Source: Jatrophihabitans telluris (lineage in GTDB: Bacteria > Actinomycetota > Actinomycetes > Mycobacteriales > Jatrophihabitantaceae). From it: a stretch of 64,000 nt of DNA. The stretch's first letter is position 1. Every line of letters starts with the position of its first letter. Under the pieces are notes generated by a model, which was given only the letters and a program-made list of their open reading frames with translations, searched no databases and was not told where the DNA came from. The stretch covers positions 1 through 64,000 of the forward strand of contig NZ_CP097332.1 in NCBI RefSeq assembly GCF_023516435.1. Reading direction: 5' to 3'. Position numbers and translations under genes: made by a program. Shown here in pieces: positions 23,888 through 59,656 of this stretch.

Positions 23888-25348
23888 CTATCCAGGCGAG
23901 CGCAGTACCTCCCGGCGGCGTTCGAGCAGCTGCGTCCGCTCGATCTCAGACGGGGCCAGGTCGGCGGCCCGCGCCAGCGCCTGCGCCGCCGCCTCGTGCT
24001 GCCCCGCCCGCGCGAGCAGGTCCCCACGAGCGGCGTAATAGGGGTGATAGTCCCGCAGCGCGGGGTGTTCGGCCAGCGCGTCGAGCTCGGCCAGCCCACG
24101 CGCCAGACCCTGCGCCATGCCGACGGCAACCGCTCGGGCGACACCGCTCACGGGCGAGGGGGCCCGTTCGTGCAGCTCGTCGTACAGTCCGAGGATGGCC
24201 GCCCAGTCGGTGTCCTCGGCGCGCTCGGCTCGGGCGTGCACGGCAGCGAGCTCAGCCTGGATCCGGTAGGGACCCCGGTTCACACGCCCACTCGTTGAGG
24301 TTGCCCTCGTTGCACCCCCACCACCCGTTGAGGTTGCCCTCGTTGCACCCCCACCACCCGTTGAGGTTGCCCTTGTTGCAGCCGCCCACCCCCCACCACC
24401 CGTTGAGGTTGCCCTCGTTGCACCCGCCCACCCCGCACCGCCCGTCCCCAGCAGGGCGTCGGCTTCGGCGATCGCAGAGCGGTCCCAGCGACTTCGGTCC
24501 TGGTGCTCGAGCGTGACCAGGCGACCATCGACCCGGCGGGCCTCCTGCCGTGAATGCTGGATCAGCAGCAGCGCCAGTAGGCTGCGCGCCTCGTCCTCCA
24601 GCGGCAGCAACTCCGCCACAAGGCGCGCCAGACGTACTGCCTCCGACGCTGCCGCGGGGTCGCGGGCGGCAGACCATCCCGCCGAGAAGGCAAGGTAGAC
24701 GACGGCCAGCACCCCGTCGAGCCGGTCGGGCAGGTGCTGGGCATCGGGCACCCGATAGGGGATGCCGGCATGCGCGATCTTGCGTTTTGCCCGCAGGATC
24801 CGCTGGCTCGCCGTCGCCTCCGGCACGAGAAACAGGCGCCCGATCGCCCGTGTGCTCAGGCCGCAGACCACCTTGAGCGTCAGGGCGACGCGGGCCTCCA
24901 GCGACAGGGCCGGATGACAGCACGTGAAGATCAATCGAAGCCGATCATCATGGAGTCCGGCGTCGGCGCCGGTGCCCGAGACTGCCGGTCCGGGGCCACC
25001 GGGGCCGGGTCGGCCGCTGCCTGCCGAGACCTCGTAGGCCATGCCGTCCTCCCCGAAAACGGGATCATTGGCGAGTTCGACCAGCTTGTCTGTCTCGAGG
25101 GCACGTCGGCGCAACACATCGACGGCGCGTCGGCGGGCGGTGACGGTCAACCACGCGGCTGGGTTGCCAGGCACCCCGTCGGTGGGCCAACGTCGCAGCG
25201 CGCGCTCGGTGGCGTCGGCGAGTGCGTCCTCGGCCAGATCCCAGTCGCCCGTCACGCCGATCAGAGCGGCCACGATCCGAAGCCGCTGCTCGCAGATCGC
25301 CGTGGCCACGGCGTGATCCACGGTGCCTCTCGGCGGGGATTTCACCAC
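23888..25348 (-). CDS. ECF sigma factor of the ECF42 type with a repeat insertion
   Basis: Alternative sigma factor. The product is 486 aa; starts at GTG 25348 or the next codon. Sigma region 2 reads GDWDLAEDALADATERALRRWP, with region 4 around STRAIGRLFLVPEATASQRILRAKRKI. The C-terminal half (LAELDALAEHPALRDYHPYYAARGDLLARAG) is the helical TPR-like extension of ECF42 sigma factors, which are commonly paired with DGPF/YCII proteins, as here. Residues about 300-350 hold a Gly/Thr-rich insertion (units GGGGATRATST) encoded by the dispersed repeat. Relatives lack such an insert as far as I know, and it sits between the region-4 part and the helical extension. Confidence 0.85.
   Translation of the reverse strand: MVKSPPRGTVDHAVATAICEQRLRIVAALIGVTGDWDLAEDALADATERALRRWPTDGVPGNPAAWLTVTARRRAVDVLRRRALETDKLVELANDPVFGEDGMAYEVSAGSGRPGPGGPGPAVSGTGADAGLHDDRLRLIFTCCHPALSLEARVALTLKVVCGLSTRAIGRLFLVPEATASQRILRAKRKIAHAGIPYRVPDAQHLPDRLDGVLAVVYLAFSAGWSAARDPAAASEAVRLARLVAELLPLEDEARSLLALLLIQHSRQEARRVDGRLVTLEHQDRSRWDRSAIAEADALLGTGGAGWAGATRATSTGGGGWAAATRATSTGGGGATRATSTGGGGATRATSTSGRVNRGPYRIQAELAAVHARAERAEDTDWAAILGLYDELHERAPSPVSGVARAVAVGMAQGLARGLAELDALAEHPALRDYHPYYAARGDLLARAGQHEAAAQALARAADLAPSEIERTQLLERRREVLRSPG
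24293..24420 (-). repeat. Dispersed repeat, four copies, in-frame inside the ECF sigma gene
   Basis: Core CAACGAGGGCAACCTCAACG (minus strand) occurs at 24293-24312, 24326-24345, 24359-24378 and 24401-24420; the third copy has A for G at position 5. Spacings are 33, 33 and 42 bp, all multiples of three. The same core forms 32-bp-period arrays at 25948 and 59573. Confidence 0.9.
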
Positions 25349-25427
25349 CGGCGCGGCGCATTCGGCGTCCCCGGCATCATCGGTCGCCCCGAGGCCGCTC
25401 CGAACGCCGCCCTCCCCGTCGACGGGC

Positions 25428-25787
25428 TCACGTCGCTTCTTCGGCAGCGTCCTCGAACGGCCAGAACGGTCGCAGCTCCAGTCGACCCTGAGCGGCCATC
25501 GGGTGCCGGGAAGCTACGTCGATCGCCTCGTCCAGGTCGGCGCATTCGAGGATGTCGAAGCCGACGATCCACTCGCGGGACTCGGCAAACGGACCGTCCG
25601 TCACGAGCACCTTTCCCTGGCGACGACGGACGGTGGTCGCGTCCTGCGCGGGCCGGGTCCGTTCGCCCATGATCCGGACACCGGCGGCGTCGTAGGTGTC
25701 GCACCAGTCCTCGATGGGCATGGTGCCCTCACCGGTGGGGTCGGCGTCGTTGTCGGGGTCGGTCGCCACGAACATCAGATAGCGCAT
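25428..25787 (-). CDS. DGPF/YCII-domain protein, partner of the ECF42 sigma factor
   Basis: Small protein of the YCII (YciI-like) superfamily, 119 aa, with ATG at 25787 behind GAGGAG. The diagnostic stretch VTDGPFAESREWIVGF gives the DGPF name, with ferredoxin-like-fold strands at the start (MRYLMFVATDP) and end (RLELRPFWPF). Biochemical role is not known; genes of this type are commonly found next to ECF42 sigma factors. It precedes the sigma gene by 79 bp on the same strand, likely one operon. Confidence 0.88.
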   Translation of the reverse strand: MRYLMFVATDPDNDADPTGEGTMPIEDWCDTYDAAGVRIMGERTRPAQDATTVRRRQGKVLVTDGPFAESREWIVGFDILECADLDEAIDVASRHPMAAQGRLELRPFWPFEDAAEEAT

Positions 25788-26109
25788 TCTCGCTCCTCGG
25801 GGTCGTCGTCATCGTTCCTACCGCAGTACGACGATCGAGTGGGCTCGGATCCGACACTTTCGCTGTTCGCCCGTCGGATTACCTCGTGCGGCCCGTATAT
25901 CGCCGCCAGGACGTTAGATCGGCCAGCTCGGAATGGAAGGCGCCCAACAACAAGGGCAACCTCAGCACCCGTGGACCCACAACAAGGGCAACCTCAACGG
26001 CCACGGACCCACAACAAGGGCAACCTCAACGCCCGTGGACCCACAACAAGGGCAACCTCAACGCCTTCGGACCCACAACAAGGGCAACCTCAACGGGGGG
26101 GTGGCCGGG
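25788..26109. other. Intergenic region dominated by a tandem repeat array
   Basis: Between the DGPF gene (minus) and the stop of the large sigma-fusion gene (minus). The left 160 bp probably hold the promoter of the DGPF-sigma operon; the right half is the repeat array at 25948-26095. No credible gene: open frames across the array shift frame with every 32-bp unit. Confidence 0.7.
25948..26095 (+). repeat. Dispersed repeat, five copies at exact 32-bp period
   Basis: Core CAACAAGGGCAACCTCAACG starts at 25948, 25980, 26012, 26044 and 26076. The first copy has two changes near its end. The 12-bp spacers are related (ending GTGGACCCA or a variant) rather than unique, so this is not CRISPR. The same core occurs in the ECF sigma gene 1.5 kb away and in front of the RsbQ-like gene at 59.6 kb. 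Confidence 0.92.
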
Positions 26110-28713
26110 TTAGTGGCCGAAGATCTGCAGCTCCCAGATCGAGTCGCCGAACCGGGTCCCGCGCGCGGTACAGAACACCCGAACGTAGCGTCCGGAGCCG
26201 TTCAGGCCCGTGATCGTGTCGGTGCCCCCGCGGCTCGTCCGGTCGGCCAGCGTGGACCAGTGGGCATCGTCGTCAGAGACCTGCAGCTGGTAGGCCGACG
26301 CAAAGGCCCGCTCCCAGCGAATGCTCACCCCGGTCAGCGAACGTACCGCGCCGAGATCGACGACGATCCACTGAGGATCCGTGCGCAGACTCGACCATCG
26401 AGTGGCGCCGTTGCTATCGACGGCGAAGGCGGCGGGGAATGCGGGCGTCTCCACACTGGAACTGCTCGCGGGCCGGTTCAGGGCAAGGTTGCCGTCGGCG
26501 ATCCAGCCGCGGGTGACGTGCACCGAGTCCCCGACGACATCGGCCCGGTAGCCGCTCTGACCCGAGCACTGGTCCCCGTATTCCGCTCCCGGCACCACGG
26601 TGCCGGTCAAGCCACCGGCGTCGGTCGAGGTCGGCGCCCCGAAGAGGGCCCCGACGAAAGGCAGCTGGGTGCACTGAGCAGGCGTGGCATCGTAGGACAG
26701 GAAGCCACTCCCGGCACCGGCGAGCGCACCGGTCCCGGCCGGCAGGACATAGCTGCCAATGGACTGGGTGCGCCCGGTAACCGAATCGGTCACCACCCCC
26801 GACCACGTGTCGGGCGCGGATTCGATCACCGCGAGTACGTACTGATGACCGAAGTCGGCGGCCAGATCGATTCCGCAGGTGAGACCGGCCCCGCCGTCGG
26901 CGCGGGTGCCGCACATCGGCTCGACCGAAGTCGTCCCCGGAATCAGGCTGGAGATCTCCGCCCGCAGCCGTTGCGTCCCGTTCAGATTCGGCATCGGGTG
27001 CAGCGCGATCGTCCCGCCCGACTCGGCGTTGCCGAAGGTGAACTGCTCGACCACGGCCGCGCCGGCCTCGTGCAGGGTGCTGGAATCAAGCGTGATGGGA
27101 AAGGCCAGGGACGTCAGGCCGCCGGCAGGCGTACCGACGACCGACCAGTCGATCGACGCCCCCTGCACACCCGGCGGCAGCGCTGCGCCCGGCGTCGCCG
27201 AGGGCGGCGGGACGGCCACGATGGGCGTGCCTGAGGATGTCGCCGGCGGCGCGAAGGAAGCGGTCGGCGCGGCCGAACGTGGCGGGACCGGCGCGGCCGC
27301 TGGGTTCGAGGACGCCGCCGAGGGCGCGACAGAGGGCGCGACAGAGGGCGCGACGGAGGCGGACACCGAAGGCGGCGGGGCAGGCACGGTCGGCGACGCG
27401 GACAGCGACGGAATCCCGGGAGCAGCCGTAGTCGCCGGAGCAGCCGTAATCCCCGGAGCAGCCGGAATCCGGGGAGAAGGCGACGTCACGATCGACGGTG
27501 CGGCGGGACGGGACGACGCCGGGCTGACGCCGGGGAGGCTGCCCGGTCGAACGCCCGAAGCCGGCGCCCCGAGGCCGGCGACGGCTTCGACCGTGAGGTG
27601 GCCGGGGTCCCGGGACACGGTTCCGACCGCGAAGGCCACGGCGCCCGCCGTGACGATCGCGGTCGCGCCGACCACGGCAGCGACGATCCCGTGGGCGAAA
27701 CCGGCACGTCGACCGACGGACCGGGCCGCGCGCCCGCTCCAGACGCGCGCCCACGTCCCGGTGCCGGCCGCCGAGCCCGCCGCGCCTGCCGTCGACCCCG
27801 TCGCGCCTCCCACCGACCCGGTCGCGCCTCCCGCCGGCCCCGCGCCGAGGGCCGCGGTCGCTACCACTGCGTGGGTGGCGGCTACCTGTGTGGCGGTTGC
27901 GTGGGTAGCGGCGAGGTACTTGGCGGCGACGGGCGCCCCGCCCAGCAGGAACGGGACGACGAGCGCACGCAAGGTCTGGTTGGTGTCGGAGATTTCGGTG
28001 AGCGCGGCCGTGCATCTCGCGCAATCCTGGACGTGCGCCTTCACGGCGGCTGCATCGCGTGCAGACAATGCATTTCTGACGTAGCCACCGAAGAGTTCAC
28101 GGGTACGGCGACATTGCGGGTCATCAGTGGCAGCGACGTGTTGGGTGAGAAATGCCTGGCGCAGCCGCTCCTTTGCCCGAACGGCTCGCGAGGCGACTCC
28201 GTTGGCGGTGGTCCCCAGAATCGGCGCGATGGCGGCCGGCGTCTCCTCCTCGACCAGCAGGTGCCACAACAGCTCCCGGCTGGCTTCGGGCAGGGAAGCC
28301 CAGGCCGCCCACGCCGCGCGATGCTCCTCGGTCGCGGCGGCCAGATCAGCAGCCGAGTCAGCGGGAAACAGGTCGAGGTCGTTGTCGTCGCCGGTGAGCG
28401 TCACCCGCTGGGTGAAAGCCCGGGCCGCGTCGATGTTGAACCGGCGCATCGTGCTGAGCAGGTACGGACGAAACGCGGCATCGGGGCCGCCACCGGTCTT
28501 GATCGCGCGCAGAACGCGCAAGAAACTCTCACTGACGAGGTCGTCGACATCGCTCGCCTTGGCGATCTGACGCGCCAATCGGCGTGCTGCTCCTTCGTGT
28601 CGCGACCAGAGCGTGGCGTAGGCCTCGTCGTCACCAGCCCGGACGGCGGCCAGCAGGTCTGCATCGCTGGGCGGGGCCACACGTTCGACGGCGTCCGCGG
28701 GCTGCACGCTCAA
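26110..28713 (-). CDS. Single-chain ECF sigma / zinc-finger / transmembrane / discoidin-domain protein
   Basis: Probably a membrane-tethered sigma factor with its own anti-sigma-like and sensor parts. The product is 867 aa from the GTG at 28713. Order: sigma region 2 (about 38-75, SDVDDLVSESFLRVLRAIK), region 4 (about 140-190, EETPAAIAPILGTTANGVASRAV), a zinc-binding HVQDCARC motif (about 229-236) of the anti-sigma ZAS type, an Ala-rich stretch, one membrane helix (about 335-358), a long Pro/Ser/Ala linker, a middle domain, and an F5/8 type C (discoidin/CBM32) domain (about 735-867, ending YVRVFCTARGTRFGDSIWELQIFG). Actinobacterial ECF groups with fused extracellular modules (ECF52/53-like) are known; the outer domain may sense glycans. 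Confidence 0.82.
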   Translation of the reverse strand: MSVQPADAVERVAPPSDADLLAAVRAGDDEAYATLWSRHEGAARRLARQIAKASDVDDLVSESFLRVLRAIKTGGGPDAAFRPYLLSTMRRFNIDAARAFTQRVTLTGDDNDLDLFPADSAADLAAATEEHRAAWAAWASLPEASRELLWHLLVEEETPAAIAPILGTTANGVASRAVRAKERLRQAFLTQHVAATDDPQCRRTRELFGGYVRNALSARDAAAVKAHVQDCARCTAALTEISDTNQTLRALVVPFLLGGAPVAAKYLAATHATATQVAATHAVVATAALGAGPAGGATGSVGGATGSTAGAAGSAAGTGTWARVWSGRAARSVGRRAGFAHGIVAAVVGATAIVTAGAVAFAVGTVSRDPGHLTVEAVAGLGAPASGVRPGSLPGVSPASSRPAAPSIVTSPSPRIPAAPGITAAPATTAAPGIPSLSASPTVPAPPPSVSASVAPSVAPSVAPSAASSNPAAAPVPPRSAAPTASFAPPATSSGTPIVAVPPPSATPGAALPPGVQGASIDWSVVGTPAGGLTSLAFPITLDSSTLHEAGAAVVEQFTFGNAESGGTIALHPMPNLNGTQRLRAEISSLIPGTTSVEPMCGTRADGGAGLTCGIDLAADFGHQYVLAVIESAPDTWSGVVTDSVTGRTQSIGSYVLPAGTGALAGAGSGFLSYDATPAQCTQLPFVGALFGAPTSTDAGGLTGTVVPGAEYGDQCSGQSGYRADVVGDSVHVTRGWIADGNLALNRPASSSSVETPAFPAAFAVDSNGATRWSSLRTDPQWIVVDLGAVRSLTGVSIRWERAFASAYQLQVSDDDAHWSTLADRTSRGGTDTITGLNGSGRYVRVFCTARGTRFGDSIWELQIFGH

Positions 28714-29242
28714 CGCTGCGCCCGCTCGACACAGGCTGCCTCAGGCCGTGTCCGCCGGCACTCATCGGCCCATACCTTCCACGCCGCAATCACCGGACTG
28801 CCGCCAGGTTCCGACATGGTCGTTCCCTTCACTCGTCGCACGGTGTGTTAGACGGACCCGCTGCAGACGTGTGTCGGCACACGCCCGGGCGCAGTGCGCC
28901 GACGGGTGCACGCCGATAGGAACGACTGCCCGTAACAACGCTCCCCATCTGCCACCTCCTCGCCCGCCCGGGCGTACTTCGCCGGGCTGGCACCCGTTAA
29001 AAGCTCAGTCCATACAACTAGCAAGTAACCGGTGCTAAATGTTGAACAGACCAAATGAAACTACAGGTCAGGGAGAATGGCTAGTCGCAACGCGTGAACA
29101 AAAGGGAGCGCTCGGGAAAACGTCGCTGAGCGGGGGACGCCCTCAGCGGGGACGCCCTCAGCCGGAGGGTGCGCTCAGCGCGGGCGTGCGCCCAGCTGCA
29201 GTGCCGACTACCGGGGAGGGCTCAACCAGTCGACGGGAGAGC
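28714..29242. other. 529-bp intergenic region
   Basis: No convincing gene. An AT-richer island at about 29005-29075 is the likely promoter zone for the minus-strand sigma-fusion gene. Near 29129-29178, imperfect units of GCGGGGACGCCCTCA repeat just after the stop of the diguanylate cyclase gene. No known RNA element was recognised. Confidence 0.5.
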
Positions 29243-30544
29243 TCAGCGAGGTGAACTGAACTCCTGCTGGCTGCGCGGCCCTTCGTCATCGATGCCCGCG
29301 AAGAGCACCATGGCCTCGCCGTGCATCGCGACCCGATTGCGGCCGGCGGCCTTCGCGCGGTACAGAGCCGCGTCGGCGGCACCGAGCACACTGTCGCCGC
29401 TGGTGCCGGTCGACTTGGGCCCGGCGATCACCCCGTCGGTGGAGTCGACCAGGGCGAGACCCACGCTGGCGGTGACCGGCAGCAGCTCCGCGGCCGGCTG
29501 GGCCGAGGCGGTGCGCTGGAGCCGGAGCGCGAGTTGCTCACCCTCGGCGCGCGAGTGCAGCCCTTCGCAGATCGCGACGAACTCGTCCCCGCCGACCCGT
29601 CCGAGCGTGTCGCCAGGACGTAGGGCGGCGCGCATCTTCTCACTGACCTCGACGAGAGTCGCGTCTCCGGCGGCGTGCCCGAGTGCGTCGTTGACCTGCT
29701 TGAAGTTGTCGAGATCGATGAACATGACCGCCAGACAGGAGTGCTCGCGCTGATCGAGCGCGTGCTGCAACCGGTCGAGCAGCAACCGGCGGTTGGGAAG
29801 AGAGGTCAGCGGGTCATGGGTGGCCAGCTCGGAGAGCTCGTCCAGCAATCGGCGCCGGTCGGTCTCCGACTCGGCCTTGGCCAGCGCGAGCCGCCGGCGC
29901 TGCACGATGAGCCAGCACAACACTCCCAGGAAGAGCAACGCGACCGAGGTCCCGACCGCCGCTGCCGCTACGGCGGCGGCCCGGGTGTCGCGGGCGAGAC
30001 GGTCCGCGGTGGCGAACCGTGCCTGGGCGCGGGCTTCCAGAGCCTGCAGGTCCGAGGTCAGCCGGACCATGGACTGTTGACCCTGCCCGGTATTGACCAC
30101 CGCCAGGGCATCGCCGACTCGGCCGGACTGACGCAACGCGACTGTGCGTTGCAGTTCGGCGGTCTTGGTCGCGACCTCGGTGGAGATCGCGGTGAGCAAC
30201 GACGCCTCGCGGGCGCCCGCCAAACTCTGCAGGTTCGCCAGCGAGCGCGGGATGGCGCCGGTGGCGCCGACGTAGGAGCTGAGGTAGTTCGCGCGCCCGG
30301 TCAGCAGGTAACCGCGCTGGCCGCTCTCAGCCATCTGGACCTCGACCAGCAGGACGGCCGCCGCGCGCAGCACCGAGGCGTGCGCCGAAGCCTGCCGTTC
30401 GGACCGGGCGCTGGCCCACGACGCGGTCATCGACAACGCCTGGCAGGTGACCAGGACCGCGGTAGCGACCAGGGCGATCACCATCGGCCAGCGGCCGACG
30501 GCCAAGCGAGGGGCAGGCTTGGGCGCGCTGCTGGACAAGGCCAT
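29243..30544 (-). CDS. CHASE3-GGDEF diguanylate cyclase
   Basis: Membrane sensor that should make cyclic di-GMP. The product is about 433 aa from the ATG at 30544, which directly abuts AGGAG; a TTG six bases further in has better spacing. Two membrane helices (about 14-36 and 200-225) flank an external helical CHASE3-like domain, with the typical QMAESGQRGYLLTGRANYL block. The cytoplasmic GGDEF domain has VGGDEF and an RPGD inhibitory site. The C-terminus adds about 20 non-conserved residues. It lies between the sigma fusion and a GGDEF-EAL gene, all on the minus strand. Confidence 0.88.
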   Translation of the reverse strand: MALSSSAPKPAPRLAVGRWPMVIALVATAVLVTCQALSMTASWASARSERQASAHASVLRAAAVLLVEVQMAESGQRGYLLTGRANYLSSYVGATGAIPRSLANLQSLAGAREASLLTAISTEVATKTAELQRTVALRQSGRVGDALAVVNTGQGQQSMVRLTSDLQALEARAQARFATADRLARDTRAAAVAAAAVGTSVALLFLGVLCWLIVQRRRLALAKAESETDRRRLLDELSELATHDPLTSLPNRRLLLDRLQHALDQREHSCLAVMFIDLDNFKQVNDALGHAAGDATLVEVSEKMRAALRPGDTLGRVGGDEFVAICEGLHSRAEGEQLALRLQRTASAQPAAELLPVTASVGLALVDSTDGVIAGPKSTGTSGDSVLGAADAALYRAKAAGRNRVAMHGEAMVLFAGIDDEGPRSQQEFSSPR

Positions 30545-30670
30545 CTCCTGTTCAGCTGCTCGATCCGGGATGGCTGTCCGGTCTTGTGAGCTTGGTGCTT
30601 GTTGAACGTTCTGCGAACAATGATGCCTTATGCGCGACCGTCTGGCCGCATGGTGGACCAACCGAGTTGG

Positions 30671-33226: not shown

Positions 33227-33228
33227 GT

Positions 33229-50856: not shown

Positions 50857-51051
50857 ATGAACATCGACAAGGACCAGATCCTGCAGTTGCTCAAGAGCCA
50901 GGGCAAGCACGACGAAGCCGCGCAAGCGGGCAACGAGCTGCCGCAGAGCGTGGACACCGACAACAGCGAGCACCAGAATCTGCTGTCCAGGTTCGGCATC
51001 GACACCAACGACCTGCCGGGTGTGATCGGCGGACTCGGCAAGTTGCTCTGA
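50857..51051 (+). CDS. Small conserved hypothetical protein (64 aa)
   Basis: Product of 64 aa from the ATG at 50857, with GGTGGAACG upstream. It is acidic and helical at the start (MNIDKDQILQLLKSQGKHDEAAQAGNEL), with a Leu/Gly-rich end (FGIDTNDLPGVIGGLGKLL). Codon use matches real genes and a perfect hairpin follows at once. Similar tiny proteins are common in actinobacteria; function unknown. Confidence 0.75.
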   Translation: MNIDKDQILQLLKSQGKHDEAAQAGNELPQSVDTDNSEHQNLLSRFGIDTNDLPGVIGGLGKLL

Positions 51052-51058
51052 CGGCCGC

Positions 51059-51091
51059 GCGAAGGGCACCCTCAACCCGGGTGCCCTTCGC
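51059..51091 (+). terminator. Perfect 13-bp hairpin terminator
   Basis: GCGAAGGGCACCC (51059-51071) pairs with GGGTGCCCTTCGC (51079-51091) around a 7-nt loop, starting 8 bp after the stop of the 64-aa gene. No T-run follows. Confidence 0.75.
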
Positions 51092-51169
51092 CGGTCCCCA
51101 AAGCAGGCCACCAAACCAGGAATGCGCGCGCTCGTCGCACACGGGCCACGAACCAAGTGAGGACAACAC

Positions 51170-51373
51170 ATGTGGGTCTTTCTTTCCCGCCGGCTGCGAA
51201 CCTGGCTGGCCCTGGCCGTCGCGATTCCCCTGCTGCGCGCCGTGCTGCGGGCTCTGGGCGCTCGCTCGGCCCGCAGGAATCCGACGTCGGCCACGACCAC
51301 GACCCTTCGGAAGGCGGAGAACTTCCTCGCCGGCCTGAGCTCGCGGTCGCGACGGCGTCGGCAAGGCCGTTAG
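51170..51373 (+). CDS. Small basic membrane protein (67 aa)
   Basis: Product of 67 aa from the ATG at 51170, with GAGGACA upstream. One hydrophobic helix (WLALAVAIPLLRAVLRALGA) is followed by a very basic tail ending SRSRRRRQGR. The family is not recognised; it lies 40 bp before a GAF-ANTAR gene on the same strand, so the two may be co-transcribed. Confidence 0.6.
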   Translation: MWVFLSRRLRTWLALAVAIPLLRAVLRALGARSARRNPTSATTTTLRKAENFLAGLSSRSRRRRQGR

Positions 51374-51412
51374 GACGGTCTCCCGCGTACTCTTCGACCT
51401 AGGGGGTTACCC

Positions 51413-52135
51413 ATGTCGGACCTGGAACCGGTGCGCACCGATCGGCTCGTTCAGGTCAGCCGTGACTTCACCGAGCTGGCACGCGAGCTGGCCTCCCACC
51501 CGAGTGTCGAAGAAACGCTCGCCGCGATCGTCACGCACGCAGTCGCCACGATCGACGGAACCGAGGACGCCGCGGTCACGCTGCAGGTCGAGGGCGGCTT
51601 CCGGACGATCGCGGCCACCGGGGACCTTCCGCTGCAGGTAGACAAGCTGCAGTACGAGACCGGCGAGGGCCCCTGCGTGCATTCGATCGAATACGGGCAC
51701 GTGCTGCGCTCGAACGATCTGGCCACCGATCCGCGCTGGCCACTCTTCGGACCGCGAGCCTCGCGGGAAACCTCGGTGGTCAGCATGCTGTCCCACCGGC
51801 TCTTCCTGGAGGACGAGCCCAGCAACGCCGCGCTGAATCTGTACTCGCGCCAACCGTCGGCCTTTGCCGACTACGACCTGGACGTTCTCGACCGGCTCGC
51901 CACCCACTGCGCCATCGCCCTGTCCAAGGCCCGCGCGCAGGACGCCAGCCACATCCTGCGGGCCTCGCTGGACAACAATCGGCGCATCGGCACCGCCGTG
52001 GGGATTCTCATGGCCGTGCACAAGATCACCTCCGACGAGGCCTTCGACCTGCTGCGCCTGGCGAGTCAGCATCACCGCCGCAGGCTCGTCGATGTCGCCA
52101 ACGAGGTCTACGAACAGGGCAAGCTCGACCTCTGA
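51413..52135 (+). CDS. GAF-ANTAR regulatory protein (third of three)
   Basis: Likely RNA-binding antiterminator. The product is 240 aa from the ATG at 51413, behind AGGGGG. GAF about 25-165 (GTEDAAVTLQVEGGFRTIAATGD; YETGEGPCVHSIEYGHVLRSNDL), ANTAR about 180-235 (DNNRRIGTAVGILMAVHKITSDEAFDLLRLASQHHRRRLVDVA). Its ANTAR is close to that of the 47.9-kb protein, and the GEGPCV motif of the GAF resembles GTGPCL of the 37.5-kb protein. All three lack a kinase or receiver domain. Confidence 0.9.
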   Translation: MSDLEPVRTDRLVQVSRDFTELARELASHPSVEETLAAIVTHAVATIDGTEDAAVTLQVEGGFRTIAATGDLPLQVDKLQYETGEGPCVHSIEYGHVLRSNDLATDPRWPLFGPRASRETSVVSMLSHRLFLEDEPSNAALNLYSRQPSAFADYDLDVLDRLATHCAIALSKARAQDASHILRASLDNNRRIGTAVGILMAVHKITSDEAFDLLRLASQHHRRRLVDVANEVYEQGKLDL

Positions 52136-52151
52136 CGGAGTAAGCCCGGGT

Positions 52152-52568
52152 TCAGCTCTTGGGGCTGAACAGTTCCAGTGCGATGTTGTCGGGATCGCGG
52201 AACTCGAGGATGTACCCGGCGCCGATGTCCTTCACGCCGCCGTGCTCGATGCCGCGCTCATCCAGACTCTGGGCCGCCTCATCCAGTTCGGTCCGCGAGG
52301 ACAGCGCGAAACTGACGTGGTCCAGCCCGGTCCGGTTCTCGGCGAACTCGTCCTGTCCGACCGGCCGCAGGCCGAGCAGCGAGTCGCCGAGCTGGTAGAT
52401 GACGCCGCCGTAGAGGAACGACAGCTGCTGCCGGGTTTCGGCGTCGGCGTTGGGCGGCAGCTCGAAGGCCACTGGCAGGCCGAAGACATCCTCGTAGAAG
52501 GCGCGGGACCGCTCGATGTCGGTGACGGTCAGACGGACGTGGGCGAAGGCGCGGGTGGGAATAGGCAT
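52152..52568 (-). CDS. VOC-family (glyoxalase-like) protein
   Basis: Metal-binding vicinal-oxygen-chelate protein, 138 aa from the ATG at 52568; specific reaction unknown. Two beta-alpha-beta-beta-beta modules: AHVRLTVTDIERSRAFYEDVFGLPVAFEL and LDHVSFALSSRTELDEAAQSLDERGIEH, with the terminal FRDPDNIALELF motif. Metal ligands would be His in AHVRLTV, His in LDHVSF and Glu in IALELF. Convergent with the GAF-ANTAR gene. Confidence 0.87.
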   Translation of the reverse strand: MPIPTRAFAHVRLTVTDIERSRAFYEDVFGLPVAFELPPNADAETRQQLSFLYGGVIYQLGDSLLGLRPVGQDEFAENRTGLDHVSFALSSRTELDEAAQSLDERGIEHGGVKDIGAGYILEFRDPDNIALELFSPKS

Positions 52569-52599
52569 GGCTTCATCATGCCCATGCGTACGTTCGGAA

Positions 52600-53400
52600 C
52601 TAGCCGTCGAGCGGTTGTTGGCCGGATCGTAAGATCGCCGGGCTGCCACTCACGATGAACCATTCCGTTCCGCAGACCAGCCGGAACAGGGGCAGGGGCA
52701 ACCGTCCGAGCAGCGCCAGCGTCCGCACGTTGTCGCCGCCGCCGGCCTGACTCACGTGCGCACGCATGGCTGCCCGCTTCGCCCGGGCGAATCGGCGGAC
52801 GTCGACGCGGTCGGTGATCTCGGCCGGGTCGGCGTAGGAACGCGCCAGCCGATCGGCCGACACCGTTCCGGGCATGATGCGCAAGCGCTCCAGCCAGCGC
52901 GCGGCACGGACCAGCCGGCTGCGGTCCACGGTCGCCTCGGCCACGGTCGGAGTTCCCGCGAGGTGGGCGGCCAGAACCCCGGCCCGGTGAACCTGGAGGT
53001 GGTCGGGGTGACCGTAGCCGCCGCGGGCGTCGTAGGTGGTCAGCACGTCAGCGGCCTCGGCTGTGAGGATATCGGCCAGCCGGCGCGCGATGTCCTCGAC
53101 CGGGACGGTGGAGAATCCCCCGTGTTCGGCGTGCATTCCCGAGTCGGGGTAGCCGAGTTCGACGACCCGATGGCAACCCAGCAGCGCCGCGGAGGCCTGC
53201 AGTTCAGTTCGTCGCCGAGCACCCAGGGCGGGGGCATCGGGCGCGCTGGCCACCCCTGGCTCGGCCAGACCCTGCTCGCCGTTGGTGGCCATCACCAGCA
53301 CCACGCGATGCCCGGCCGCGACGGCCATCGCGACAGTGCCACCGGTCAGCAGCGCCTCGTCGTCGGGATGGGCGTGGAAGCAGACCATGGTCAGGCTCAT
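52600..53400 (-). CDS. PIG-L family deacetylase
   Basis: Zinc-dependent N-acetylglucosaminyl-type deacetylase, 266 aa from the ATG at 53400, which overlaps the glycosyltransferase stop as ATGA. Zinc motif AHPDDEALLTGG at the start and GHPDHLQVHRAG in the middle are intact. The family includes MshB and Mca of mycothiol metabolism. Coupling to a glycosyltransferase suggests a sugar-conjugate substrate, possibly a mycothiol-like or antibiotic-like glycoside. I would not assign MshB from this alone. Confidence 0.88.
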   Translation of the reverse strand: MSLTMVCFHAHPDDEALLTGGTVAMAVAAGHRVVLVMATNGEQGLAEPGVASAPDAPALGARRRTELQASAALLGCHRVVELGYPDSGMHAEHGGFSTVPVEDIARRLADILTAEAADVLTTYDARGGYGHPDHLQVHRAGVLAAHLAGTPTVAEATVDRSRLVRAARWLERLRIMPGTVSADRLARSYADPAEITDRVDVRRFARAKRAAMRAHVSQAGGGDNVRTLALLGRLPLPLFRLVCGTEWFIVSGSPAILRSGQQPLDG

Positions 53401-54539
53401 CGCAGGGCGGCCACCAGCGCGTTGCGTCTCAGGGTGGTGTCGGCCGATTCGTACAACTGCTCGGCCGCGGCGGTGATCAACGGCCATGTCTGCACCGGAC
53501 GGACCGATCGATTGTGGGCGGTGAGGCGGTGACGCAGGTCCGGCGAGATGACCAGCCGACGGATCGCCTCGACCATGCCGCCGTCGTCGCGCGCGAGCAG
53601 GCCCTCGTGCCCGTCGCGGACGAAATCGGCCGTGCCCGTCGAAGCGAACGCGACCACCGGCAGCCCGGCGCTGCGGGCCTCGAGTGCGGCGATACCGAAG
53701 GACTCGAGCGTGGCCGGCGAGAGGTAGACGTCGGTATCGGCATAGCGAGCCAGGATCTCCTCCGCGGGCAGCTGCCCGAGCAGGTGCACCCAGCCCGTCA
53801 TACCGTTCACGGCAAGGAAGTGGCGCAGCTGCGGGGCCAGCGGGCCGTCGCCGATGATGTCGAGGTCGATCCGGATGGAGTCGGGGACGCCGGCTCGGAC
53901 CGCGCGCATCATCTGCAGCAGTTCCAGCGGTCGTTTGCGGGCGGCCAGGCGCATCGTGGTGGCGATCCGTACCCGGGACGGCGGGCGCGGCGATTCAGCC
54001 GGCGGCGCCCACTGGACGGTGTCGACCGCGTTGGGCAGCACCGCCACCGAACGTCCGAGCAACTCGGACGACAGCTCTTCGGCGGCGATCCGGCTCACCG
54101 CCGACCAGGCGATCGGCCAGTCGCGCCAGCCCAATACCCAGTCGGCGCCGCGGAAGATCGGAGCGGCCCACGCCCACATCGAGTGCAGGGTGAGGGCGAC
54201 CGGCACTCGGCCGGCAACAGCACGAGCGGTCAGGTAGGGCAGCGGAGAGAAGGTCGAGGCGTGGACGTGGACCACGTCGTAGCGGCCACGTCGCACGGTC
54301 CGCGTTCCCGACCACGAGCTGCCGTAGCGGATCGGAGCGATCCCCGATTCGGACAGGCGCCGCGACGCGGGACGGTGGACGGGGAAGCTGTCCTGGTCGC
54401 CGGCCAGGCCCGCCGGGACCGAGGTGATCACCTCGACGTCGTGTCCCTGGGCCTGCTGAGCCGTCGCCAGACCGTGCACCTGTCGCTCGATACCGCCCAG
54501 ACGGGGGAGGTAGCAGTCGGTGACATGGGCAATCCTCAT
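53397..54539 (-). CDS. GT4-type glycosyltransferase
   Basis: Retaining, nucleotide-sugar-dependent glycosyltransferase of the GT-B fold, 380 aa from the ATG at 54539. There is no clear ribosome site, so it may be leaderless. The N-terminal domain has RIAHVTDCYLPRLGGIERQVHGLA, the linker region VLPNAVDTVQW, and the C-terminal donor site has DVYLSPATLESFGIAALEARSAGLPVVA with the E-x7-E motif. The sugar and acceptor are unknown. Partner of the PIG-L deacetylase downstream. Confidence 0.9.
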   Translation of the reverse strand: MRIAHVTDCYLPRLGGIERQVHGLATAQQAQGHDVEVITSVPAGLAGDQDSFPVHRPASRRLSESGIAPIRYGSSWSGTRTVRRGRYDVVHVHASTFSPLPYLTARAVAGRVPVALTLHSMWAWAAPIFRGADWVLGWRDWPIAWSAVSRIAAEELSSELLGRSVAVLPNAVDTVQWAPPAESPRPPSRVRIATTMRLAARKRPLELLQMMRAVRAGVPDSIRIDLDIIGDGPLAPQLRHFLAVNGMTGWVHLLGQLPAEEILARYADTDVYLSPATLESFGIAALEARSAGLPVVAFASTGTADFVRDGHEGLLARDDGGMVEAIRRLVISPDLRHRLTAHNRSVRPVQTWPLITAAAEQLYESADTTLRRNALVAALR

Positions 54540-54729
54540 GAGGAAACGATGAGGGCCGGTCGGTGTGACAACGATGTGGCGGCCGGGGAGTTCACCCCCC
54601 AAGCCTACGGGACCACCCCCACACGTTGCTCACATTCGCGACTGGCTACCGTGCCGTAGACGCTCGGCCGAGGAACCGACCGGGCCGCGCCGCCGGACCA
54701 CGACGTCGCCCGACCCGGAATCGGACCCG

Positions 54730-55647
54730 ATGAGCAACAGCGGATTGGTCATCGCGCTCAGCCTGCTCAGTGCCCTGGCTTTCGCGATCTCCACCAATCT
54801 CAAACACAACAGCGCCGCCACCGGGCCCGCGCTGCATTCGATGTCCCCGAAAAACCTGGGCGGTTTCGTCCTCGCCACGGTGAATCACCCGCTCTGGCTC
54901 GCCGGAATCGCGGCTGACCTGATCGGTCTCGTCCTGCAGATCGTCGCGCTGCACCGGGGCGCGCTCGCCGTGGTCCAGCTGCTGCTGGTCAGCGGGTTGC
55001 TCTTCACCCTGATCATCCGCAACCTGCACCACCGTCGTATCGACCACGCCGAACTGGGGTGGGCCCTGCTGCTGGTCCTCACGCTGGGCGGGTTCCTCTA
55101 CGTCGCGGCCGCGGCGCCGACCTCGGACGTGAAAGAGGGCGTGGACCGGTTGCCGGCCGCGCTGGCCGCGCTGGCCGGCACCGTCGTCGCGGTGGGCGCC
55201 GTGCTGCTCGCCCGGCGCGTGCGGCCGGCCGCAACGGGTGCGGCCGCGCTGGGCATCGCGGTGGGGATCATCTACGCCAGCGATGCCGCCCTGCTCAAGG
55301 CCTGCTCGGACCGCCTCTCGCGGGGGCTGGGCACGTTGCTCACGAGCTGGCAGCTACCCACGGTCATCGTCGTCGGCGCCCTCGGACTGTTCCTGTGCCA
55401 GTTGGCGTACCAGGCTGGTCCGCTGTCGGCCAGCCAGCCCAGCATCGTGGCCGTCGATCCCCTGGTCAGCGTGGTCATCGGAGTCCTCATCTTCGACGAG
55501 CACCTGCGAAGAGGACCGTGGACCGGCGCTGCCCTGGCCGTCCTCGTCGTGCTGCTGACCCTGGCGGTCGTCAACCTGGCGCGGCTGGAGAGCCGCCAGG
55601 ACGCACCCGACTCCGGCGCCGTGGCCGCACGCACGACCGGCGGCTGA
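54730..55647 (+). CDS. DMT-superfamily (EamA/NIPA-like) transporter
   Basis: Integral membrane protein, 305 aa from the ATG at 54730, with nine or ten hydrophobic helices. The first is LVIALSLLSALAFAISTNLKHNSAA; others include LIGLVLQIVALHRGALAVVQLLLVSG and SQPSIVAVDPLVSVVIGVLIFDEHL, the last typical of NIPA/EamA-like DMT transporters. The substrate is unknown (magnesium is reported for NIPA proteins in eukaryotes). It stands alone, divergent from the glycosyltransferase. Confidence 0.82.
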   Translation: MSNSGLVIALSLLSALAFAISTNLKHNSAATGPALHSMSPKNLGGFVLATVNHPLWLAGIAADLIGLVLQIVALHRGALAVVQLLLVSGLLFTLIIRNLHHRRIDHAELGWALLLVLTLGGFLYVAAAAPTSDVKEGVDRLPAALAALAGTVVAVGAVLLARRVRPAATGAAALGIAVGIIYASDAALLKACSDRLSRGLGTLLTSWQLPTVIVVGALGLFLCQLAYQAGPLSASQPSIVAVDPLVSVVIGVLIFDEHLRRGPWTGAALAVLVVLLTLAVVNLARLESRQDAPDSGAVAARTTGG

Positions 55648-55732
55648 ACCTCGGTGCTGCCCGGGAGCCGGCTGTGCATTGTCGCGGTGTTGGCTCGCTG
55701 GCACTGCGCTGAGCGCCCGGTATAGCGAGACT

Positions 55733-57280
55733 GTGATCGTGCGTCGACTACGGGTGTGGGCTCTGCCGGTGGCGGTGGCGTTGTTCTACGTCGCCTACCT
55801 GCTGTGCTGGTCGGTCACGAACCCGCCGTTCGCCTCGCCGGACGAGGGTGCCCATTACCTGCGCGCCATCGGCGTCGCGCAGGGACACCTGCGAGACACG
55901 CCGAAGCCATACCTGACGGTGCGGCAGGCGCACGTGTCCTCGGAGACCATGCTGCACTGGCTGAACCAAGCGACCACCGTGGTCTCGGTCCCGCGGGGAA
56001 TGGTGACCTCGGGCTGGACGTGTGAGATCCACGGGCTGGCCCACGCCGCCAGCTGCCTGGCCTCGGCCCGGCCGTCGGGCTCGGTTCAGCTGCTGCGGAC
56101 GCCGGTCGGCAACTACCAGCCGATGCCCTACCTCGCCCCCGCGTTGGCGATGAGCCACGTCCACACGGCGTTCGCGGCCCTGCTGTCGGCGCGGCTGGTC
56201 GCCGCCGCCACCTGTGCCGTCTTCCTCGTACTCACGGTCGCGCTCAGCTGGACCGGCGAGGCGTGGTCGCTGGTCGGTCCGAGCGCGGCCGTGACCCCGA
56301 TGGTGCTGTTCACCTCCGCAAGCCTCAACCCGAGCGGGCTGGAGATCGCGACCGCCCTGGCCTGGCCGGCCGGGCTGCTGGCGCTCGCGCGCTTCGGCCA
56401 TCCGCCGGCCTGGATGTGGTGGGCCTCCGGCGCCGCCGGGGTGGCGCTGGCCCTGAGCCGGACCCCGGGACCGGTCTGGGTCGTCCTCGACCTCGCCGTC
56501 GTCGCGGCGCTGACCACCGGACGCGGCAGCCACTCCTTCGCCCGCGACAACCGCGCGGCGATCGCCGTGACGGCCTCGGCGGTGTTCGGCGCCGTCGTAC
56601 TGAACCGCGTCTGGGAGGCGCGCTACGGATCCCACCTGGGGGCGACGTCGGCCGCCATCGTGCGCCACCTGCCCGGACAGGCCCACGTGCTCCCATCGCT
56701 GGCCGAGCAGCTGGTCGGGCGCTTCGGGTGGTTGGACGTCGGCCTCCCCCACGTCCTCGTCGACACTTGGCAGTGGGGGGTCGTGGCGTTGGTCGTCATC
56801 GCGCTTTCGGTCGCCTCCGGACGCCAGCGCCTCGTCCTGACCGCCACGATCCTGCTCGTCCTCGCCGTCACGGTGACACTCGCTTCGGCCCTCATCACGG
56901 GAACCGGTTATGCCGTGCAAGGACGGCACATTCTGCCGATCGCGGTCCTGATCCCCCTCGTCGCGGGCGAGCTCGCCCGGCGCAACCTTGGGCGGCTGCC
57001 GACCATGATGAGGATGACCATCCCCGCGGTCGTGACCGTCGGTGCCCTCGCCCTCAACCTGCTTGCGTGGTACGGCAACGCACGCCGCTACGCCGTGGGC
57101 ATCCACGGTTCGCTGCTGTTCGTCCTGCACGAGAAGTGGCAGCCGCCGCTTGGCTGGTATCCGTGGCTGGCCATCGTCGTGGTGGCCACCCTCGCCGCGA
57201 GCGCGGCCGCTGCCCTTGGTGTCGTCACCGGGTTCGTCCAGGCGGGCCCGGGTGATCAGCTGGTGAAGACCGCGGGTTAG
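55733..57280 (+). CDS. DUF2142-family membrane protein
   Basis: Polytopic membrane protein of unknown function, 515 aa from the GTG at 55733. A TATAGC hexamer sits seven bases before this GTG, so a leaderless transcript is plausible. The family block CWSVTNPPFASPDEGAHYLRAIGVAQG lies in the first external loop after helix 1, resembling GT-C fold enzymes. About eleven more helices follow. DUF2142 proteins are often found near surface-glycan genes. Its stop overlaps that of the convergent LacI gene. Confidence 0.83.
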   Translation: MIVRRLRVWALPVAVALFYVAYLLCWSVTNPPFASPDEGAHYLRAIGVAQGHLRDTPKPYLTVRQAHVSSETMLHWLNQATTVVSVPRGMVTSGWTCEIHGLAHAASCLASARPSGSVQLLRTPVGNYQPMPYLAPALAMSHVHTAFAALLSARLVAAATCAVFLVLTVALSWTGEAWSLVGPSAAVTPMVLFTSASLNPSGLEIATALAWPAGLLALARFGHPPAWMWWASGAAGVALALSRTPGPVWVVLDLAVVAALTTGRGSHSFARDNRAAIAVTASAVFGAVVLNRVWEARYGSHLGATSAAIVRHLPGQAHVLPSLAEQLVGRFGWLDVGLPHVLVDTWQWGVVALVVIALSVASGRQRLVLTATILLVLAVTVTLASALITGTGYAVQGRHILPIAVLIPLVAGELARRNLGRLPTMMRMTIPAVVTVGALALNLLAWYGNARRYAVGIHGSLLFVLHEKWQPPLGWYPWLAIVVVATLAASAAAALGVVTGFVQAGPGDQLVKTAG

Positions 57281-58290
57281 CGCCTCGAGCGGGGCGGGCC
57301 CACGCTGGCGCGGACGACGAGTTCGGGTGCGATCACCGCACGCTCCGCCGGCCGGTCGGGCGTAGCCATCCGTTCCAGCAGCAGGCCCAAAGTGCGGTTC
57401 GCGGCCTGCAGAAAGTCTGGCCGCACGCTGGTCAGCGGTGGGGTGAAGTACGCCGCCTCCGCTACGTCGTCGAAGCCGACCACGGAGATGTCCACCGGTA
57501 CGGAACGGCCGTCTTCGTGGAACGCGCGCAGCAATCCCAGCGCCAGATGATCGTTCGCGGCGAAGACCGCGGTCACCTCGCTCATCCGCGCGAGGGTCCG
57601 TCCCGCCCGGAATCCCGCAGCAGCGGTCCAGTCGGCCGGGATCGCCGGAGGGACCTCGCAGCCGGCGGCCTGCAACGTGCTGCGCCATCCCTCGAGGCGG
57701 CCCGCGCTGTCGAACCAGCCCGGCGGACCCGACACGTGCCACACCGTTGCGTGGCCGGCGTCGAGCAGATGTCGAGTGGCCAGCCGTGCCCCCTCGACCT
57801 GATCGATGGTCACGAGGTCGGTCCGCAGGTCGGGATCGCCGTCCACCACGACATAGGGGACGTCGTCGGGAATGCCGTCGATGGCCGGCTGAGCCGAGGC
57901 GACCGGAGCGATCACGACGATGCCCGCGACACCCTGGTCGAGTTGACGGTTCACCGCGGTGACCAGGGCCTGCCGCGTCATGGTCGGGACGCTCGCCAGG
58001 GTGACGTTCATCCCGGCCAGCGCTGCCGCATTCTCGAAGGCGACGAGCAAGGACGCGGGTCCGTACAGAGTGGTCGTCTGGGTGACCACTCCGATGAGGT
58101 GACTGCGGCCGGTGACCAGCGCCTTCGCGGCCCGGTTGGGCCGATAGCCCAGTTCCGCGATCGCCGCGCGAACCCGGGCCCGGGTGTCCTCGCTGACGTT
58201 GGGATGCGCGTTGAGCACCCGGGAGACCGTCTGGTGCGAGACGCCCGCGAGCGCGGCCACGTCGGTCATCGCAGGCGGCCGCTGTCTCAT
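57277..58290 (-). CDS. LacI-family transcriptional regulator
   Basis: Sugar-responsive DNA-binding regulator, 337 aa from the ATG at 58290; the in-frame sequence upstream is repeat-rich and unlikely to be coding. Helix-turn-helix MTDVAALAGVSHQTVSRVLN, hinge GYRPNRAAKALVTGRS, and an effector domain ending SVRPDFLQAANRTLGLLLERM. No sugar genes are nearby, so its targets are unknown; it is one candidate for the araA operator at 10031. It overlaps the convergent DUF2142 gene by 4 bp. Confidence 0.88.
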   Translation of the reverse strand: MRQRPPAMTDVAALAGVSHQTVSRVLNAHPNVSEDTRARVRAAIAELGYRPNRAAKALVTGRSHLIGVVTQTTTLYGPASLLVAFENAAALAGMNVTLASVPTMTRQALVTAVNRQLDQGVAGIVVIAPVASAQPAIDGIPDDVPYVVVDGDPDLRTDLVTIDQVEGARLATRHLLDAGHATVWHVSGPPGWFDSAGRLEGWRSTLQAAGCEVPPAIPADWTAAAGFRAGRTLARMSEVTAVFAANDHLALGLLRAFHEDGRSVPVDISVVGFDDVAEAAYFTPPLTSVRPDFLQAANRTLGLLLERMATPDRPAERAVIAPELVVRASVGPPRSRR

Positions 58291-58328
58291 CCGGTCAGTA
58301 TCGCCCAGGCGTGCCCCGGCCCCGGCTC

Positions 58329-58365
58329 GGTCGTCGATCGTCGGTCGTCGATCGTCGATCGTCCG
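58329..58365. repeat. CGATCGTC-type short repeats upstream of lacI
   Basis: Units of TCGTCGATCG and TCGGTCGTCGATCG alternate in tandem, giving many overlapping CGATCG palindromes. It lies 39 bp upstream of the LacI start, so it is in its leader or promoter. Could be an operator cluster or a slippage tract. Confidence 0.55.
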
Positions 58366-58410
58366 GGACGGCACCCTGGTTGCTCGGCCGAGGGGTCGGG
58401 ACCGGGTCGG

Positions 58411-58650
58411 TCAGATTCCCTCGGGTTCGGGACGATGTTCGTCGCCGGCGATGGCGTCGGCGGCACCCGCACCGAAGGCCGCACCCGCACCGGGAGTCTG
58501 TGGAACGGACTCGTCCCCGCCGTGGCGCCCGTCCTGGTCGGTTTCGCTGTGGCCGCCCGTCCCGACGTCCTCGCGGTGGTGGCCGATGCGGTCCTTGACC
58601 TCGTCGACGACGTGCTCAACCTTGTCCTTGGCCTTGTCGAATGCGTCCAT
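58411..58650 (-). CDS. Small charged hypothetical protein (79 aa)
   Basis: Product of 79 aa from the ATG at 58650, with AGGGTGG upstream. The first 28 residues (MDAFDKAKDKVEHVVDEVKDRI) form a charged amphipathic helix like those of small actinobacterial CsbD-like or Rv0909-like proteins. The rest is Gly/Asp/Ala-rich and probably disordered. Function unknown; no toxin-like partner is adjacent. Confidence 0.65.
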   Translation of the reverse strand: MDAFDKAKDKVEHVVDEVKDRIGHHREDVGTGGHSETDQDGRHGGDESVPQTPGAGAAFGAGAADAIAGDEHRPEPEGI

Positions 58651-58736
58651 GATGTCCACCCTTCGATCCGGGTGCCTGCCCTGTGCGTTGAGGGCGACGG
58701 TACGAACCGGGCCAACCCTATCCGGCCCCGCTCGAC

Positions 58737-59420
58737 TCACACCACGACCGGCTCCTTACTCACCAGAGCCTGGGCCACCGGCCCGTCCATCTGTTCACCG
58801 AGCAGGGTCGCGGCACAGAACTGCGCCGCGGCGGAGTCGAAGACGCGATGCCGGCTGAGCATCGCATGCTTGCCACCGTCCACCCGGAGATAGCCGACGT
58901 GGGTATGCCGGGAGATGTTGCGGGCAACCTGCCACGAGCGCACCGGACTCGCGATCCGGTCCTGCGAGCCGTGCACGATCAGGACCGACCGTCCGGTGAG
59001 ATCGGGACCGTCGGTGGAATAGACCCAAGGGGCCAGGGCGACCGCGCCGACGACTGTGTGGTGATCGGCGGCCAGCAACGCCGCGCGGCCACCCAGCGAA
59101 TGGCCCACGAGGCACACCGGCACGCCCAGACCGAACCGATCGGCGATCTGCCGCAGCGCCCAGTGCGCGTCGTCGACCGGCGTGTGGTGGGCGTCCCAGC
59201 CACGGCTGGAGTTGAGCAGCCGGAAGACCGCCAGTTCGCCGTGTCCGGCGCGGGAAATCCGCTTGGCGATCGGGATCATCCGTAACACCGACAGTTGGGT
59301 GGGCGAGACCATGACGCTGCCTTGCCGGCTCGCTCCGCCGTGCAGGACGATCACCGCGCCGCGGGGGCGCCGGCCGCCCTTGGGTAGGCGGACGTCGACG
59401 AGACGCGGGGTCAGCACCAC
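58737..59420 (-). CDS. Alpha/beta hydrolase
   Basis: Serine hydrolase of the alpha/beta fold, substrate unknown. The product is about 227 aa from the GTG at 59420 (another GTG follows at 59417). Oxyanion loop in VIVLHGGASRQG, nucleophile Ser in LVGHSLGGRAAL, acid Asp in LIVHGSQDRIAS and base His in GGKHAMLS. The layout resembles dienelactone hydrolase-like enzymes. No signal peptide is seen. Confidence 0.82.
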   Translation of the reverse strand: MVLTPRLVDVRLPKGGRRPRGAVIVLHGGASRQGSVMVSPTQLSVLRMIPIAKRISRAGHGELAVFRLLNSSRGWDAHHTPVDDAHWALRQIADRFGLGVPVCLVGHSLGGRAALLAADHHTVVGAVALAPWVYSTDGPDLTGRSVLIVHGSQDRIASPVRSWQVARNISRHTHVGYLRVDGGKHAMLSRHRVFDSAAAQFCAATLLGEQMDGPVAQALVSKEPVVV

Positions 59421-59572
59421 GTGAGACCGATGCTCAGCGCGGGCTCGGTGATCCGACTGCTTCGTGCGGCGGGCAACTGCTTCATCCACGTCCTCATTCC
59501 GGTCCCCGCCACTGGCGCGGACGGCCCTGCCCACGGTAGGTCACCGGGTCGGCCAGGAGGCCAGGGCGTGAG

Positions 59573-59656
59573 CAACACGGGCAACCTCAACGGACCGCAG
59601 CGAGCAACACGGGCAACCTCAACGGACCGGAGCGAGCAACACGGGCAACCTCAACG
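59573..59656 (+). repeat. Dispersed repeat, three copies at exact 32-bp period
   Basis: Core CAACACGGGCAACCTCAACG starts at 59573, 59605 and 59637, with 12-bp spacers of the form GACCGNAGCGAG. It ends 27 bp before the RsbQ-like start and just upstream of the AT-rich CATTATGG, so it sits in that gene's promoter region. It shares its core with arrays 34-35 kb away. The rest of this space (59421-59572) shows nothing else. Confidence 0.92.

Follow-up and report, generated by a model that had tools for sequence, protein, structure and literature searches.

Results

Three arrays of a 20-bp core in the window

The stretch of DNA analysed here (the window) is the first 64,000 nt of the single contig of 4,193,897 bp that forms the genome of Jatrophihabitans telluris (NZ_CP097332.1), and the element in question is a 20-bp core, CAACNNGGGCAACCTCAACG, which an earlier note had reported twelve times at three distant places. 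When 3 mismatches or fewer are allowed, it is found exactly 12 times in the whole window, always at the places claimed, compared with an expectation of 0.06 from shuffled windows (largest count in any shuffle, 1). Array 1 (24293..24420, minus strand) contains four cores, at 24293, 24326, 24359 and 24401, in frame within a sigma-factor gene. The five cores of array 2 (25948..26095, plus strand) are at 25948 (2 mismatches), 25980, 26012, 26044 and 26076, with 14 nt between the end of the array and the stop codon of the gene at 26110..28707 (minus strand). Array 3 (59573..59656, plus strand) has three cores, at 59573, 59605 and 59637, with AC at positions 5–6, and lies between two gene starts. 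The exact 32-bp period ascribed to the intergenic arrays is found in arrays 2 and 3; array 1, which is intragenic, has steps of 33, 33 and 42 bp. The spacers are unlike between loci, as had been noted, and similar inside one locus.

The gene containing array 1 (23888..25321, minus strand) encodes a 477-residue sigma-70 factor of the extracytoplasmic function (ECF) type with Sigma70_r2, Sigma70_r4_2 and DUF6596 domains, in which the array forms a low-complexity linker of ATRATSTGGGG-type repeats at about residues 292–345. Most alignments of this protein with its own paralogue and with relatives break at residue 290–292 and resume at 338–350, the subjects having merely a few codons between; judged from these alignments, array 1 is therefore an insertion of ~46–50 residues, missing from the paralogue and the relatives. 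Its three steps are all divisible by three and, read from the letters, the core in this orientation is free of stop codons in all frames. Among exact cores genome-wide there are 7 steps of 33 bp, and two in succession are found in the sigma-factor gene only.

Array 2 is faced by the 3′ end of the gene at 26110..28707, whose product has a sigma-70 region 2, a zinc finger and an F5/8 type C domain; on its other side a YCII-domain gene (25428..25787, minus strand) has its 5′ end towards the array. The called start of an alpha/beta hydrolase gene (59677..60525, plus strand) is 20 nt past array 3. Two further repeats in the window, a tandem of a 15-bp unit (CGAACGGCTGATCGA) at 1435–1583 and a pure CGGGC run at 23778–23813, are dissimilar to the core.

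Copy number in the genome and restriction to it

The core is not confined to the window. With up to 2 mismatches the genome has 284 + 270 = 554 copies, of which 185 + 183 are exact, compared with 1 + 0 copies of the reversed control, so that the three places seen first are a small part of a dispersed family. Plus-strand copies at first seemed to be missing from 1.31 to 3.11 Mb, but they are present at 2.44, 2.79 and 2.92 Mb.

Among the genomes searched, the family is restricted to this one. Sixty relatives, including 8 congeners, have 0–10 core copies each (up to 2 mismatches), close to their controls, and the 396 genomes of the order, these sixty included, have 0–8 each (up to 1 mismatch). 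No tandem pair of cores with a spacer of 11–13 was found in a set of one genome per species covering 84,980 species, from which the organism's own genome was possibly left out, nor in viral contigs, 14 of which have one core each. A phage or plasmid origin was rejected on this absence from viral contigs and because the plasmid and phage records found by distant BLAST with array 2 (33 and 17, respectively) are, with few exceptions, short partial matches; the top plasmid match, H1 in Mycoplasmopsis gallopavonis, is a 15-bp repeat inside a coding gene. The congeners are no close relatives (fumarase 84–89% identical, M1 peptidase 68–81%), and on these sequence comparisons the repeat therefore belongs to this species alone or to a group near it, and is not necessarily recent. 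Among 80 retained of 587 relatives of the fumarase, the best named matches are metagenome-assembled genomes called Pseudonocardiales bacterium (88%) and Jatrophihabitans sp. (81%).

Architecture of the arrays and constraint on the core

We analysed the arrays in an 862-kb sample consisting of 20 evenly spaced 20-kb stretches, 20 stretches chosen around core copies, and the window. It contains 54 arrays with 281 cores (up to 3 mismatches); the even stretches alone have 11 arrays per 400 kb, in 7 of the 20 stretches. The step from unit to unit is 32 bp in 181 of 199 cases, 31 bp in 10, 33 bp in 6, and 42 and 57 bp in one each. Isolated single cores (up to 2 mismatches) are absent from the sample. 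Twenty-eight arrays are two-sided, and every one of these has inverted copies on the left and direct copies on the right. The inverted junction has a 4-nt loop in 18 of the 28, most commonly CGCG (5), and the consensus inverted form folds at −38 kcal/mol.

It is the core rather than the whole unit that is conserved, as the earlier note supposed. Between adjacent 32-bp units, the 18 fixed core positions differ by 0.016 per site (181 pairs), core positions 5–6 by 0.050 and the spacers by 0.100 (119 pairs), the core value being somewhat lowered by the few-mismatch filter on matches (7 matches have 3 mismatches and 43 have 4). Positions 8–10 are unchanged across the 281 copies. Besides positions 5 and 6, first described as variable, positions 14 and 17 vary in the genome sample as well; the form with G at position 14 makes up 38 of the 281 copies and often fills entire half-arrays. 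Just 5′ of the core, C is preferred at −4 (60/82 half-runs) and −2 (50/82), and G at −1 (71/82).

Two other repeats were encountered in the sample. A second dispersed family, a long hairpin GCATAGTGCGGCCCGAACTTTGG...CCAAAGTTCGGGCCGCACTATGC with variable ends, has four intergenic copies, at 81844, 83003, 483019 and 1238069 (L039, L041, L070). A tandem cluster of a 38-bp unit around GCTGGTCGGGCGCG, with up to 17.6 copies, occupies 900480–913965 (L043) and is limited to that one 20-kb stretch.

Position and polarity relative to genes

The arrays are placed with respect to gene ends. Of the 82 half-runs, 58 have a gene 3′ end as their neighbour, no more than 150 nt away, and for 52 the distance to the stop codon is 21 nt or less. 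In the sense of the preceding gene the element reads CGTTGAGG..., pointing away from the gene, and in nine half-runs the core itself supplies the stop codon. When the three arrays overlapping called genes and the one at a stretch end are set aside, 50 intergenic arrays are left; convergent gaps hold 24 of these, against 115 of 557 gaps overall (Fisher p = 5e-6), and divergent gaps hold 6, against 128 of 557 (p = 0.05). In 11 of the 28 two-sided arrays neither flanking stop codon is more than 25 nt away, which leaves little space for another terminator. Among the 24 intergenic arrays of one orientation, a stop codon at 25 nt or less is present on the expected side in 16 and on the opposite side in 8, and 7 of these 8 are in convergent gaps that have both. 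Of 278 cores (up to 2 mismatches) just 4 are clearly intragenic, and the window's sigma-factor gene accounts for all of them. Nineteen of 20 proteins encoded next to arrays match ordinary chromosomal Pfam families (fumarase, ketoacyl synthase, Lsr2, kinases). The gene for an Lsr2-type nucleoid protein (L064:10445-10792) has a four-core array 7 nt past its stop codon.

Unrelated hairpin families in relatives

Families in the relatives (numbered with the prefix G) were sought by intergenic words and stems, whole-stretch k-mers being dominated by codon patterns. The word GTAGGACTTTC has 32 + 32 copies in G001, 1 in G008 and 0 in seven others including the present genome, while CGATCGTGTAAC has 31 + 36 copies in G004, 32 + 30 in its sister G006 and 0–1 in seven others. 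A small family, CAGAGCATGACGC, has 5 + 5 copies in G002 and 0–1 elsewhere. In G003, 10 stretches and 3 small loci gave no stem common to different loci; the sampled DNA of G005, G007 and G008 amounts to 12.7–14.2 kb each.

The words GTAGGACTTTC and CGATCGTGTAAC form the arms of hairpins. With both arms exact, there are 15 of 48 bp in 22 loci of G001 (seven loci are without such a pair), and 23 and 21 of 49 bp in 22 loci of G006 and 21 loci of G004, respectively; since the loci were fetched for containing the word, the invariance of the arms is a product of the search pattern. All of the hairpins are outside called genes; for most, a stop codon is 1–20 nt away or is part of an arm. The inner stem is free to vary. 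Counted over 38 distinct elements from two sister genomes that are not independent and with no chance model applied, some of its pairs change on both sides yet stay paired, such as 17–33 (G-C in 28, A-T in 8 and G-T in 2) and 18–32 (G-C in 28, C-G in 9 and other in 1), while others pair poorly, such as 22–28, formed in 14 of 38. The two sisters share 17 matched hairpins (one doubtful, all at chosen loci) in the same place and orientation, whose inner parts differ by 0.056 per site and whose flanks differ by 0.18. An apparent inversion of hairpins in place disappears once contig orientation is corrected. The hairpins of G001 (L246-L265) and G002 (L093) often have a common central CATGA-like loop with unlike arms.

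In five convergent gaps, at 124829, 411161, 1288740, 1361208 and 3449439, an array in this genome corresponds in place to a relative's own element, although orthology is less sure at 411161 and 124829 because both neighbours and one neighbour, respectively, are only 54–66% identical. In the convergent gap between fumarase and a gene that we take from its sequence to be PhoH-like, G004 and G006 have a single strong hairpin and this genome has three cores. In the gap between M1 peptidase and CMAS, G001 has a tandem of GAAAGTCCTAC plus an inverted copy, G004 has three 16–17-bp units, and the others have a different hairpin or nothing obvious. Half of our own stretches and 60 loci of relatives were chosen for their repeats and two sites were sought deliberately, so the syntenic gaps are a set of cases and not a rate.

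Discussion

A proposed gene-end element

We propose that the repeat is a gene-end, that is, transcription-end, element homogenised into a species signature, and estimate the probability of this at about 0.55. Three features together point to the end of transcription: the stop-codon polarity, the two-sided layout found between convergent genes and the relatives' hairpins. Most arrays are immediately 3′ of a stop codon, reading CGTTGAGGTTGCCCTYGTTG away from the preceding gene; a convergent pair often has one half-array per gene, and the resulting inverted pair would give a 44-nt hairpin with a 4-nt loop. An array so placed may define transcript 3′ ends and separate convergent transcription. Where both orientations are present it could work as a U-less hairpin, and where only one is present it would most likely be recognised by a factor binding the core, on duplex DNA or nascent RNA; the 32-bp spacing, about three helical turns, would favour duplex DNA. 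The arrays would have grown by local tandem duplication with the core kept fixed, under some homogenising force, and elsewhere in the genus several species may use another sequence, likewise homogenised across the genome, for the same role.

Several observations weigh against this proposal. Twenty-six of the 54 arrays have a single orientation, and one such tandem, taken as an example, folded without a long hairpin. A U tract is missing, TTTT being found within 15 nt of only 1 of 102 array ends in this genome, 5 of 88 hairpin ends in G004 and G006 and 0 of 28 in G001. Of the half-runs, 20/82 face a 5′ end, 2/82 have their 3′ end at a distance above 150 nt, 1/82 is intragenic and 1/82 is at a stretch end, and as the genes come from a simple codon-model caller single boundaries may be wrong. 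Two of the three arrays in the window are exceptions to the gene-end rule, which array 2 alone obeys, array 1 being intragenic and array 3 between gene starts. Three of eight syntenic gaps have a relative's hairpin and no array here: at 775820, a codirectional gap, this genome has another hairpin; at 803485 its gap is 21 bp; and at 2160595 (L049) its convergent gap is filled with 16–17-bp tandem units of CCGGTCAGCGCAAT type, G001 having its own hairpin with tandem arm-like copies. Conversely, at 1361208, 3449439 and 3450833, where an array is present here, ten rows of relatives are without the relatives' known words.

The single-orientation arrays bear on the form of the proposal. With nearly half of the arrays of this kind, the hairpin is not general here, and a pure hairpin-terminator model leaves them unaccounted for because such a tandem, in the one example folded, gives no long hairpin; a factor reading the core is then the simplest further assumption. 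A gene-end element read by a protein is the option we favour over the others, short of proof.

A wider version of the proposal holds that a transcription-end signature is swapped wholesale between species across the genus, the same convergent pairs keeping an element, which would imply a sequence-specific gene-end factor that co-evolves to match scores to hundreds of sites. On present evidence this is doubtful, if possible.

Alternative explanations

The alternative that survives best is a selfish miniature element, resembling repetitive extragenic palindromic (REP) sequences or miniature inverted-repeat transposable elements, which would prefer gene ends or terminator hairpins, be spread by some enzyme and have no function; we consider it rather unlikely. 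Its 554 copies in one genome, with no tandem pair in the collections scanned, are what it would lead one to expect, as is array 1, a clear insertion into coding sequence, and so is the coexistence of several dispersed families, such as the second hairpin at four places in our own sample. The placement is also that of REPs, which according to the part of PMC3733652 available occur for the most part 3′ of coding regions, in gaps separating unidirectional as well as convergent genes. That source and the available part of PMC12306157 describe REPs and bacterial interspersed mosaic elements (BIMEs) as hundreds of short extragenic copies, often close and inverted, with some families species-specific. 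High copy number, extragenic location and proximity to gene 3′ ends are all found for the core, and of the options left by the earlier note (a protein-binding site, a REP-like mobile element or a non-coding RNA) REP-like placement is thus borne out.

The likeness stops at the sequence and at the enzyme. PF01797, the RAYT or Y1 transposase, has no match in this genome (other transposases were not sought) while 5 of 14 control genomes match. Neither end of the core consensus has a GTAG or CGTC tag, and the consensus is not a strong palindrome, having only a GAGG-GCAA-CCTC stem, and its positions 5–6 vary. Membership of the REP/RAYT class was dismissed on these three grounds. The head-to-tail 32-bp tandems, the polarity to stop codons and the invariable inverted-left, direct-right order of the two-sided arrays also set the present repeat apart from REPs and BIMEs. 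Further points count against a selfish element: the sample has no single cores; the spacers differ among arrays, so that little beyond the core is common to the sites; the relatives' elements keep their places between the two sisters; and insertion alone leaves the stop-codon polarity unexplained. As to a non-coding RNA, an Rfam scan of the window, other arrays being left out, gave no match at the gathering score, and a structured RNA family was dismissed on this result.

It is improbable that the core is a DNA uptake signal whose numbers are maintained by uptake bias and which serves secondarily in terminators, as in Neisseria and Pasteurellaceae. The available portions of PMC1852404 and PMC3630211 describe DNA uptake sequence (DUS) dialects and uptake signal sequences (USS) as words at the species level that are present hundreds to thousands of times, forming inverted pairs in terminators and having a stop codon within most words. 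Many copies and inverted pairs of terminator type are present here as well, but frequent single and intragenic copies are not. The core is 20 bp long, tandem, never single in the sample and nearly absent from genes, its few intragenic copies being in one sigma-factor gene, whereas intragenic DUS sites are common according to the portion of PMC3630211 available; and the relatives' words are unrelated in sequence rather than mutual variants.

Neutral tandem growth, in which arrays at slippage-prone gene ends drift without function, can point to other intergenic tandems (the 16–17-bp units at 2160595, the 38-bp family near 900–914 kb, and the short units of G004 at one syntenic gap) but is disfavoured as very improbable, since slippage can neither put one 20-bp word at scores of unrelated sites nor fix its polarity, nor preserve the core next to spacers that diverge about six times as fast.

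Relation to known systems

Another near comparison is with the I-shaped terminators of mycobacteria, which the available part of PMC12288462 describes as hairpins without a U tail at 50 bp or less from the stop codon, in a group where canonical U-tract terminators are reportedly few and Rho is described as dominant. Our two-sided arrays have in common with them a predicted U-less hairpin near a stop codon. In our arrays, however, the stem is homogenised genome-wide and is species-specific, about half of the arrays cannot form the hairpin, and the U tract of a canonical intrinsic terminator is not found. A survey of stem-loop families covers three high-GC Gram-positive genomes, according to the part of PMC2267715 available. 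A CRISPR array was rejected, the spacers being ~12 bp and alike within an array where unique ones of ~30–40 bp are expected.

Like these arrays, the neisserial dRS3/NIME and the mycobacterial MIRU are short repeats dispersed between genes, and the stretches that separate their copies vary. To our knowledge neither gene-end polarity nor 32-bp phasing has been described for them. In searches of the open-licence literature, no paper listed describes the core or a genus-wide replacement in its title or the beginning of its abstract, which is not proof of novelty.

Implications

The unrelated words at like places in several relatives suggest that species mark gene ends, probably the points where transcription stops, with a signature of their own. 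Little is understood of how high-GC actinobacteria end their genes, and hundreds of near-identical, polar copies at gene ends give a direct handle on it, with one core for the pull-down of a factor and natural replacements in the relatives. If the signature truly turns over as a set, this would be a rare instance in which all copies of a cis element across a genome are rewritten together, with a parallel in the dialects of uptake sequences yet confined to gene ends.

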